41,837 bases of DNA from Desulforadius tongensis (lineage in GTDB: Bacteria; Bacillota; Desulfotomaculia; Desulfotomaculales; Desulfohalotomaculaceae): assembly GCF_016907915.1 (NCBI RefSeq), contig NZ_JAFBCW010000026.1, forward strand, positions 1 through 41,837, given 5' to 3'. Every line of letters starts with the position of its first letter. The first letter of the stretch is position 1. The notes beneath the pieces are model-generated. The model did not search any database. It saw only the letters and a program-made list of their open reading frames with translations, and was not told the DNA's origin. A program made the translations under genes and the position numbers. Positions 3,816 through 29,525 of this stretch are shown here, one piece after another.

Positions 3816-4025
3816 CTAAGATTTATCTTTAGATAACTGTTCAAATATTTTCTTATTTAAATTAATTAGTTCATCCAATTTATCTATTATCGCTTCTTCT
3901 CGCTTGCGTCGAAGTTTTAGTCCATTTATTACTTTCCGATATATGCTGTATAAAAGGAATATCAGTAAAATAATCGTGAGAATATTAAATAATTGCCATA
4001 AAAGCGAAATATTAAATAATTCCAT
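3816..4025 (-). CDS. Small membrane protein with coiled-coil tail (DUF4083-like)
   Basis: The 69-aa product has one N-terminal hydrophobic segment (about residues 8-28), a basic stretch (KLRRKREE) and a C-terminal amphipathic helix (IIDKLDELINLNKKIFEQL). This layout resembles the short DUF4083 proteins of Firmicutes, whose function is unknown. The basic residues after the membrane span predict a cytoplasmic tail. A clear ribosome site (GGAAGGTGAT) precedes the ATG. It lies 57 bases upstream of the 110-aa membrane protein on the same strand, and the two may be co-transcribed. Confidence 0.55.
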   Translation of the reverse strand: MELFNISLLWQLFNILTIILLIFLLYSIYRKVINGLKLRRKREEAIIDKLDELINLNKKIFEQLSKDKS

Positions 4026-4248
4026 TAAAAAACATCACCTTCCCAATTTACATTTTAGATATTTCCCTTTCATTTAAAGTCACCTTCTTTAACAAAAAAA
4101 TGACTACAAACCCATTTTTTCTTTATTAATTGTTAAAATTCGGCCATTTCAGGGCGTTTCTTTAGCCAAAAATTCTGAAAATATGCCTTTTATACAGCAA
4201 ATTCTTGAATAATTGGCCAAATACCTTCCCACACCAGTAAAAAATAAT

Positions 4249-4306
4249 AAAATTTTCCGTCGCCCCCGGAAGTTTTTCTCGCTATTGCAGGTCGACGGAA
4301 AATTTT
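4249..4306 (-). repeat. Long palindromic stem-loop downstream of cotJC
   Basis: Two 14-base arms (4249-4262 and 4293-4306) are perfect inverted copies of AAAATTTTCCGTCG, separated by a GC-rich 30-base centre containing a run of five C. It lies just past the end of the cotJ operon and could serve as its terminator. The large ordered loop looks more like a dispersed palindromic element than a plain terminator. The rest of the gap 4026-4336 shows nothing else. Confidence 0.5.
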
Positions 4307-4336
4307 TTGCGTTTTAAAATAGATTTTTGCATTAAA

Positions 4337-12786: not shown

Positions 12787-12788
12787 AC

Positions 12789-12863
12789 TGGAGCGGAAGA
12801 CGGGATTCGAACCCGCGGCCCTCGCCTTGGCAAGGCGATGCTCTACCACTGAGCTACTTCCGC
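12789..12863 (-). tRNA. tRNA-Gly (GCC)
   Basis: A 75-nt cloverleaf including encoded CCA. Acceptor GCGGAAG pairs with CTTCCGC, the anticodon loop is TTGCCAA, and the T loop is TTCGAAT. It is identical to the copies at 12997 and 22879. Confidence 0.97.
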
Positions 12864-12867
12864 ACGG

Positions 12868-12943
12868 TGGCGGAGCTGACGGGACTTGAACCCGCGATCT
12901 CCGGCTTGACAGGCCGGCATGTTAACCACTACACCACAGCTCC
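12868..12943 (-). tRNA. tRNA-Asp (GTC)
   Basis: A 76-nt cloverleaf with encoded CCA. Acceptor GGAGCTG pairs with CAGCTCC, and the anticodon loop is CTGTCAA. Same as the copies at 13076 and 23044. Confidence 0.97.
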
Positions 12944-12996
12944 ACCTTCAAGTCAATTACCTTTTCATTTTACATTATCTTAACCAAAAAATCAAC

Positions 12997-13071
12997 TGGA
13001 GCGGAAGACGGGATTCGAACCCGCGGCCCTCGCCTTGGCAAGGCGATGCTCTACCACTGAGCTACTTCCGC
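12997..13071 (-). tRNA. tRNA-Gly (GCC), second copy
   Basis: Identical to the gene at 12789-12863, with anticodon GCC and encoded CCA. Confidence 0.97.
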
Positions 13072-13075
13072 ATGA

Positions 13076-13151
13076 TGGCGGAGCTGACGGGACTTGAACC
13101 CGCGATCTCCGGCTTGACAGGCCGGCATGTTAACCACTACACCACAGCTCC
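13076..13151 (-). tRNA. tRNA-Asp (GTC), second copy
   Basis: Identical to the gene at 12868-12943. It is the first gene transcribed from the promoter at 13192-13220. Confidence 0.97.
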
Positions 13152-13191
13152 ACATTGTTTAATCAGTTGTGCTGTTCCAGCGGCAACTATT

Positions 13192-17394: not shown

Positions 17395-17799
17395 ATGCAC
17401 GAGCACAAAATAATTCAAACTGACCAGGCCCCGGCCGCCATCGGACCTTACTCCCAAGCCGTTAAATTTGGCTCAATGGTATTTGTATCCGGACAGCTGC
17501 CGGTTGATCCCGCCAGCGGTAATATCGCCAACACCATCCAGGCACAGACCCACCAATCTTTAAAAAATGTAGAAGCAATTTTAAAACAAGCCGGATGTTC
17601 GCTAAAAAACGTAGTTAAAACAACGGTATTTATTAAAAACATGGATCAGTTTAGTGAACTTAATGAGGTTTACAGCCAGTATTTTAGGGAATCCCCACCG
17701 GCCCGGGCCTGTGTGGAAGTGGCCCGGCTGCCGAAGGATGTTTTGGTAGAAATTGAAGCTGTGGCCTTTATTCCACCGGAACACCCCAGCAGAGGATGA
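17395..17799 (+). CDS. ridA: RidA family reactive-intermediate deaminase
   Basis: RidA hydrolyses enamine/imine intermediates such as 2-aminoacrylate to ketoacids and ammonia, protecting PLP enzymes. The 134-aa product has the family hallmarks GPYSQAVKFG, FVSGQLPVDP, ARACVEVARLPKDVLVEIEAVA with the conserved Arg, and forms a trimer in known members. I use the ATG at 17395, with GGGAGG ten bases upstream. An ATG at 17377 overlaps that site. It is divergent from tnaA across about 150 bases. Tryptophanase passes through aminoacrylate, so the pairing makes biochemical sense (inference). Confidence 0.94.
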   Translation: MHEHKIIQTDQAPAAIGPYSQAVKFGSMVFVSGQLPVDPASGNIANTIQAQTHQSLKNVEAILKQAGCSLKNVVKTTVFIKNMDQFSELNEVYSQYFRESPPARACVEVARLPKDVLVEIEAVAFIPPEHPSRG

Positions 17800-17805
17800 A
17801 AAGCA

Positions 17806-18012
17806 GGTGGCCTTTTGTACAAGTGAGCGTTTATGGATGAGCCGCTGCCAAACTAAGGGAGGGATGCCGGTGGAGGCAGGGGCCGCACAGGAAGTGCGGC
17901 ACCGGCATTTGAGCCAGGGAAGGCGAATATGCCGGGAACGTGTGCGCAGCCGGCAGACCGAGCGCTAAGTTTGGCCGGCGAAGGAATTTAAGCGAACGTT
18001 ACAAAAGCCACC
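17806..18012 (+). ncRNA. Highly structured non-coding element of unknown family
   Basis: The region between ridA and the next terminator folds into a closed multi-branch structure. P1 is GGTGGC (17806-17811) plus TTTTGTA (17813-17819) with TACAAAA plus GCCACC (18000-18012), 13 bp with one bulged C. P2 is GCCAAACT (17847-17854) with AGTTTGGC (17968-17975). P3 is ATGCCGGT (17864-17871) with ACCGGCAT (17901-17908), enclosing the hairpin GCCGCAC/GTGCGGC (17882-17888 with 17894-17900). P4 is TGCCGG/CCGGCA (17930-17935 with 17950-17955). P3 and P4 arms are interchangeable. It is GC-rich and no reading frame fits. I cannot match it to RNase P, SRP, tmRNA or a known riboswitch. The strand is uncertain, and it could instead be a dispersed DNA repeat. 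Confidence 0.6.
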
Positions 18013-18046
18013 AGCTTAGAACCGCAGCATTTTTCAGGGTAACTTA

Positions 18047-18086
18047 AAAAGGCCCTATGGTATATATTTGTACCATAGGGCCTTTT
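18047..18086. terminator. Bidirectional intrinsic terminator
   Basis: A 16-bp perfect stem (18047-18062 with 18071-18086) has four A on the left and four T on the right. It terminates ridA and the structured element on the plus strand and the HD-GYP gene on the minus strand, whose stop lies in the right arm. Confidence 0.9.
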
Positions 18087-28868: not shown

Positions 28869-29525
28869 ATGCAACAACAAATGCAGCAGGTACAGCAGCA
28901 GTTGAACAGCCTGCGCCAAAATTTAAACAGTATTTCTCAAATGGCCAGCCAATTGTCTCAAACGGAGCAGAACAACGCCCAGCAGCTTCAGCAGATGGGG
29001 CAAATGGAAGGAACCGCCAGCCAAAAGCTGCAGCAAATCAATCAAATATGCCAGCAGGCCAACCAAAGCCTAAGCCAGCTGGCCAGTCAAACCCAACAAA
29101 TAACCCAGCAGTTAGGACAGCAGCAGCAAGTTGGCCAGCAGCAGCCCTTCGGCCAGTACAACCAACCGGGAACGCAGCAGCAACAGCAGCCTTACAGCCA
29201 GTGGAACCAACAGCAATTTAACCAGCAGCAGCCTTACAGTCAGTGGGGACAACAGCAGCAATTCAGCCAGCAGCAACAGCAGCAAAAGCCTTTCAGCCAG
29301 TATAATCAACTGGCAGTGCAGCAGCAGCCCTACGGCCAGTGGAACCAACAGCAGCAATTCAATCAGCAGCAACAGCAGCAAAAGCCTTTCAGCCAGTACA
29401 ATCAACTGGCAGTGCAGCAGCAGCCTTACGGCCAGTGGAGCCAACAGCAGTACGGCCAAATTGGTACCAATCAATTTGGCACCACCGGCTATGGTTTACA
29501 ATTCGGACAGCAGTATCGACAGTAG
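28869..29525 (+). CDS. Gln/Tyr-rich low-complexity, prion-like protein, 218 aa
   Basis: About residues 1-85 form a Gln-rich amphipathic coiled-coil-like region (QQLNSLRQNLNSISQMASQL). Residues 85-218 are a low-complexity domain of Gln, Tyr, Trp, Phe, Asn and Ser with PYSQW and PFSQYNQ modules. A 32-residue unit is repeated exactly in phase, with a 96-base offset (near 29287 and 29383). There is no signal peptide. It has a good GGGAGG site and a terminator, so it is a real gene. I recognise no family. A spore-surface, adhesive or phase-separating role is speculation. Confidence 0.75.
   Translation: MQQQMQQVQQQLNSLRQNLNSISQMASQLSQTEQNNAQQLQQMGQMEGTASQKLQQINQICQQANQSLSQLASQTQQITQQLGQQQQVGQQQPFGQYNQPGTQQQQQPYSQWNQQQFNQQQPYSQWGQQQQFSQQQQQQKPFSQYNQLAVQQQPYGQWNQQQQFNQQQQQQKPFSQYNQLAVQQQPYGQWSQQQYGQIGTNQFGTTGYGLQFGQQYRQ

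Follow-up and report, generated by a model that had tools for sequence, protein, structure and literature searches.

The stretch analysed here (the window) comprises 41,837 nucleotides of Desulforadius tongensis DNA (contig NZ_JAFBCW010000026.1). Directly after its ridA gene, in the sense orientation, lies a compactly folded element followed by a terminator-like palindrome (Table 1). The folded part, at 17797-18020 on the + strand, reaches -102.7 kcal/mol at its free-energy minimum, with a z-score of -7.10 and none of 200 dinucleotide shuffles being as stable; the z-score of the - strand is -6.08. The architecture runs from helix P1 to helix P6 and includes two adjacent hairpins with ANGGA loops, set in a three-way junction. 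The P4 inner stem, which pairs GGCAGGG with CCCTGCC in the family, is broken in the window copy, where GTGTGCGC replaces CCCTGCCG; thus, this copy is probably slightly decayed. Elsewhere in the window, two tRNA genes are tandemly duplicated at 12787-13156 (162-base unit, 98% identical), and repeats of ~53 and ~96 bases at 29135-29466 seemingly encode a glutamine-rich stretch.

Table 1. Parts of the element and its flanks in the window.
Feature	Position	Strand	Basis or remark
Left-end repeat motif, 2 mismatches to GCACCANCAGNGGATNAAAA	17783..17802	+	includes ridA stop codon; motif scan of host genome
P1 5' arm, AAAAGCAGGTGGCCTTTTGTA	17799..17819	+	fold; covariation
P1 3' arm, TACAAAAGCCACCAGCTT	18000..18017	+	fold; 34-copy covariation
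P2 5' arm, GCTGCCAAACT	17844..17854	+	8-copy and 34-copy covariation
P2 3' arm, AGTTTGGCCGGC	17968..17979	+	8-copy and 34-copy covariation
P3 5' arm, ATGCCGG	17864..17870	+	fold; 8-copy covariation
P3 3' arm, GCCGGCA	17949..17955	+	fold; 8-copy covariation
P5 hairpin, GCCGCAC-AGGAA-GTGCGGC, loop with GGA	17882..17900	+	fold; aligns to first TwoAYGGAY hairpin
P6 hairpin, CCGGCAT/ATGCCGG stem and purine internal loop	17902..17935	+	fold; aligns to second TwoAYGGAY hairpin
Inner hairpin of P6, GCC-AGGGAA-GGC, loop with GGA	17913-17924	+	
Right end of the repeat, AGAACCGCAGCATTTTTCAGGGT	18018..18040	+	recurs at right end of other copies and in internally deleted derivatives
Terminator-like palindrome 3' of the element	~18047-18086		

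The original prediction, made from this sequence by itself, had placed a multi-branched element at 17806-18012, after ridA. The repeat is longer than that interval, extending from a left-end motif at ~17783 to a right end at ~18040. The position relative to ridA likewise needs adjustment: the left-end motif takes in the ridA stop codon (17797-17799) and provides both the stop and the final residues of the protein. Thus, the insertion has reshaped the C-terminus of RidA.

The fold of the element is kept by compensatory change. In an alignment of 34 copies, two-sided changes are present in 53 of the 59 base pairs (482 cells in all, a number reached by none of 500 shuffles), and standard pairs occupy 93.0% of 1936 cells, versus a shuffled mean of 66.3; pairing falls to 31-40% when the partners are slid by 1-3 columns. 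An alignment of 8 copies contains a compensatory change in 15 of the 59 pairs, and the stems that had been predicted are therefore genuine and at the place proposed for them, with the suggested covariation check borne out in both alignments. The sequence of P1 differs almost wholly between copies with the pairing kept: its 7-bp inner part is 97.7% paired across the 34 copies and shows two-sided changes in 7 of 7 pairs, and the enclosing stem (helices 3, 4 and 7) is paired in 94-99% of cells, 19 of its 22 pairs showing two-sided changes. A protein-coding reading, offered by a 71-aa ORF that overlaps the element (17753-17968), was rejected, because the alignments show indels and compensatory changes that render the ORF meaningless; the element is non-coding, as had been proposed.

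With regard to the strand, G-U cells outnumber A-C cells by 67 to 28 in alignment A3 and by 74 to 31 in A4, and, in well-paired columns, by 42 to 11 in A5 and by 24 to 18 (a small excess) in A6. Such an excess is expected if the + strand RNA is under selection; the model used for fitting these alignments was itself a + strand one, and this leans in the same direction. A3 includes two antisense matches and one fragment, which were taken out before A5, and truncated copies were excluded from A2 and A5; A6 has one copy twice (L190 and L237), and A7 has two secondary partial matches.

Genome comparison revealed what a view of a single sequence could not, namely, that the element is a dispersed repeat rather than a one-off gene. 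A DNA search of 41 genomes yielded matches in four: the host genome (18 scored), G004 (9), G023 (2) and G016 (1). Neither the DNA search nor model scans found the element in G001 and G002, the remaining two genomes of the host genus. A covariance model built from eight full-length copies (R1) was used for the copy-number check that had been suggested, and gave 30 matches at E<=0.01 in the host genome, five of them above 200 bits and one at 120 bits, with about six near full length. Across the order, R1 matched 23 of 113 genomes; four genomes scanned more closely contained 24, 31, 39 and 16 matches. A second model (R2), built from 34 diverse copies (alignment A5) including the window copy, L031, found the element in 50 of 113 genomes and 34 of 55 genera of the order, and in 102 of 398 genomes and 70 of 266 genera of a phylum sample, 94 of the 102 at E <=1e-10; the E-values of both models rest on a short calibration. 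Among the named carriers are records of Desulfofundulus, Desulfovirgula and Thermanaeromonas.

The left-end motif recurs at 89 sites of the host genome with <=3 mismatches (42 with <=2), versus 4 for a reversed-pattern control, often in short derivatives that are internally deleted and keep both ends. As judged by simple ORF calling and with truncated copies excluded, 58 of 82 copies are co-directional with the upstream ORF, and for 39 of these the next ORF also points the same way. When the 494 ORFs surrounding copies at 60 loci were compared all against all, no recurrent neighbour gene emerged: the largest cluster consisted of spurious ORFs inside the element, and several others represented a single syntenic locus (f81, see below). 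The window copy had no match among phages and plasmids, and viral contigs had none to one exact pattern, which is a weak test.

At the Rfam gathering thresholds, the window yielded tRNAs only, and a scan of 411 bases at E up to 10 yielded no family for the element beyond a CsrB match of 10.1 bits. These scans agree with the earlier statement that the element is not RNase P, SRP RNA, tmRNA or a known riboswitch. The family, which had been considered unknown, can nevertheless be named from its relatives: in 4 of 20 relatives' loci, RF01731 (TwoAYGGAY) scored above gathering exactly on the element, with 66.7 bits in L231, 63.4 in L251, 54.5 in L229, and 51.9 and 44.1 in L070. A laxer scan of eight loci gave 51.1 bits for L074, 42.7 for L226, and 42.0 and 37.6 for L243, and no RF01731 match at E<=1 for L031 (the window copy), L060, L062, L235 and L254. 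In a 241-base scan, both hairpins of the window copy aligned to both hairpins of the RF01731 model, with a score of 22.5 bits, below the gathering threshold of 43; this is the best Rfam score of the window copy, which passes no Rfam threshold. L070 and L074, both above gathering, share alignment A5 with the window copy. Thus, with relatives scoring 51-67 bits, the window family appears to be a divergent, mostly unrecognised branch of TwoAYGGAY. The window copy is a remote TwoAYGGAY member through these intermediates and not by its own score, and its membership in the TwoAYGGAY superfamily is very probable. The loops of the window copy read AGGAA and AGGGAA and those of the family CA(N)GGA(N)G, the strict AYGGAY being present in part of the family only. 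Separately, L235:1612-1707 matches RF03531 n00280, an sRNA of Clostridioides difficile, at 46 bits, below the threshold of 65.2. In the report by Weinberg and co-workers, TwoAYGGAY is listed as a probable RNA that is not cis-regulatory, with a range covering human gut, gammaproteobacteria and Clostridiales (PMC2864571).

Across three alignments, GGA is present in the P5 loop in 33/34, 30/34 and 29/32 rows and in the P6 loop in 33/34, 33/34 and 29/32 rows, ranking among the most conserved unpaired positions. Both loops conform to ANGGA and the stems are free to vary, as expected of a site for a CsrA dimer. Gardner and Eldai are reportedly the authors of a 2014 prediction that TwoAYGGAY RNAs bind CsrA. 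That work also notes tandem G-A pairs (PMC4333381), and in the literature, as far as its text was accessible, we found no experimental test of the predicted binding. Whether CsrA is the partner of both loops we regard as an evenly balanced question. The host genome has two CsrA matches. In the phylum sample, CsrA (PF02599) was detected in 92 of 102 element-positive versus 193 of 296 element-negative genomes (Fisher p 4e-7, with descent ignored); the association within the order, based on R2, is weaker (34 of 50 versus 28 of 63, p 0.014, descent again ignored). Carriers with no detected CsrA amount to 10 of 102 in the phylum sample and 16 of 50 in the order. The ten of the phylum sample, identified by eye from two lists, mostly keep the GGA loops (copies of 8 of the 10 genomes, with G341 and G364 outside). 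In G404 (L252:1501-1717), which has no detected CsrA, both loops are altered together, from GGA to CACAC, a single case that is compatible with one partner for both loops.

There is little doubt that the family is mobile. Genome G077 carries ten copies in 259-260-bp units with inverted ends, which we take to resemble those of IS10. Six of the ten are flanked by exact 9-bp target duplications and a seventh by one with 1 mismatch; none occurs at 8 or 10 bp, and in the control 0 of 90 pairs fell within 2 mismatches. Two 139-bp units of the same genome have the same ends and no matching core. Among the G077 copies outside this 9-bp subfamily, 3 of 14 exceed the control, of which L111 looks like a third-subfamily duplication and L112 like a chance or repeat match. 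In G033 (Soudan_19), direct repeats above the 95% control accompany 8 of 26 copies; several of these are duplicated terminator stems of 18-27 bases, and one of the eight (44 bases) takes in the end of another copy. No target duplications were found for the subfamily of the window copy. Thus, one and the same core is flanked by ends of at least three kinds. In G077, G012 and G033, pattern scans, which would miss inexact ends, uncovered no autonomous parent, as no two ends lay as far apart as those of a complete insertion sequence. For the subfamily that targets terminators, an IS1182-like origin was considered and drew no support from either a pattern scan or the literature. Such clear signs of mobility are new for a TwoAYGGAY-type RNA, the accessible parts of the literature on the family containing no mention of it that we could find.

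Some copies depart from the standard form or position. Three G077 copies of ~310 nt (L109:3017-3327, L120:6202-6515 and L127:3064-3376) contain unrelated sequence inserted within or next to the inner hairpins, and four G033 copies of the same length (L148, L141, L146 and L130) have a common insertion, which differs from that of G077, as though it had travelled along with the element. Several G077 insertions with the presumed IS10-like ends (L119, L121, L122, L123 and others) are located a short way upstream of a TTGACA-like box that precedes the next gene, a position that may simply be one in which insertions do no harm.

Four congeneric genomes (G195, G229, G334 and G464) have the element between S41 peptidase and glycerate kinase genes (f81; L225, L226, L227 and L228, around 4000-4330), apparently as a single copy, a status that rests on phylum scans in which five candidates were scored per genome and per-genome counts are lower bounds. 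These copies are 89-95% identical, versus 47-84% at fourfold sites of three neighbouring genes, and, by this comparison, the sequence at the locus is under strong constraint. This likeness might also be the result of gene conversion or of repeated insertion at one site; descent is the simpler account, because the site is common to all four genomes. In G229 (L226), the element lies in inverted orientation between its P1 arms.

The explanation we favour, with a probability of about 0.55 for the whole of it, is that the window element is one copy, slightly decayed, of a non-autonomous mobile element with a TwoAYGGAY-type RNA core and CsrA-binding loops. The element would be moved in trans by transposases recognising its ends, with insertions mostly behind genes and transcription by read-through. 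Its two GGA loops would dock on opposite faces of a single CsrA dimer, and each transcribed copy would either take up CsrA, acting as a sponge, or place the host transcript under CsrA. Against this explanation count the broken P4 and low RF01731 score of the window copy, the failure to find a partner transposon or a recurrent neighbour gene, and the retention of GGA loops in genomes with no detected CsrA; inversion in place at one orthologous locus also sits oddly with a role that depends on host transcription. The absence of a recurrent neighbour, the inversion and the loops retained without detected CsrA would all be at home in a selfish repeat with a structure of its own: either its RNA would bind some partner that is not CsrA, or its compact fold would make intergenic insertions harmless, with no gain to the host. 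The mobile subfamilies, the many internally deleted derivatives keeping both ends and the absence from the congeneric G001 and G002 point the same way. Nevertheless, we consider such a repeat rather doubtful, as the identity of the f81 copies, well above that of neighbouring fourfold sites, is hard to explain without a function there, and the same CsrA-type loop is kept by two separate hairpins.

Constraint could instead operate on DNA, the element forming an ssDNA hairpin for a transposase or recombinase, as do REP, attC and the ends of IS200/IS605. The P1 arms do behave like inverted ends, including in the inversion between them, and the Soudan_19 copies are inserted at terminator stems; however, the excess of G-U over A-C in all four alignments (small in A6), the predominant co-orientation with the upstream ORF and loops that match an RNA-protein motif make this account unlikely. 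The location in the window, directly behind ridA in sense orientation and with a terminator-like palindrome downstream, would suit a cis-acting 3'-UTR element of ridA or its convergent neighbour, serving as a terminator or in stability or antitermination, but the same element recurs at dozens of unrelated places with no recurrent neighbour family, and a locus-specific role of this kind is highly unlikely. As to the two-state switch that had been raised in the original prediction, the TGCCGG/CCGGCA arms shared by P3 and P6 are indeed present in the window copy, whereas across the 34 copies the alternative pairing holds in 52-57% of cells, versus 92% for the native P6, so that we give the switch next to no credence.

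TwoAYGGAY has been an orphan family since 2010, and the window family adds to it many members, a full architecture that includes an outer stem, and the unexpected trait of mobility. In Clostridia-like genomes, much of this family is missed by annotation based on Rfam. If CsrA binding holds true, transposons carry the binding site of a global regulator, and copy number amounts to a natural experiment. Tentatively, and with the odds against it, the element might be a transposable RNA regulator: a CsrA-binding domain placed on several unrelated transposon ends, present in dozens of copies per genome and in many genera, which would repeatedly place operons under CsrA or set the level of free CsrA through copy number, with a single copy domesticated in some lineages.

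Among known systems, MITEs, which are non-autonomous derivatives of insertion sequences, resemble the G077 subfamily, whose 260-bp units have inverted ends and duplicate 9 bp of the target, and share with the family the internally deleted derivatives; unlike MITEs, the window family has as its interior a deeply conserved folded RNA, held between at least three kinds of ends with no parent found. IStrons, in which a group I intron is combined with an insertion sequence, also join a structured RNA to DNA-transposon mobility (PMC4227781), whereas the window family has neither an Rfam-recognised intron core nor a transposase gene, and its copies lie between genes rather than inside them. CsrB/RsmZ-type RNAs, which sequester CsrA, likewise present GGA in hairpin loops as paired sites, and CsrB belongs to the same Rfam clan as TwoAYGGAY; in contrast to these RNAs, the window family has only two sites in a compact junction, its copies are dispersed and mobile, and its binding of CsrA is predicted only. 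With TwoAYGGAY itself (RF01731, clan CL00106), the family shares two adjacent hairpins with AYGGAY-like loops inside one stem: relatives of the window copy match the whole model or its hairpin part, and tandem G-A motifs, described in PMC4333381, are also visible here as GCGA/GAGC and CTGA/GAA. The window branch differs in its long outer stem and repeat ends, which lie outside the Rfam model, and in being multicopy and mobile.
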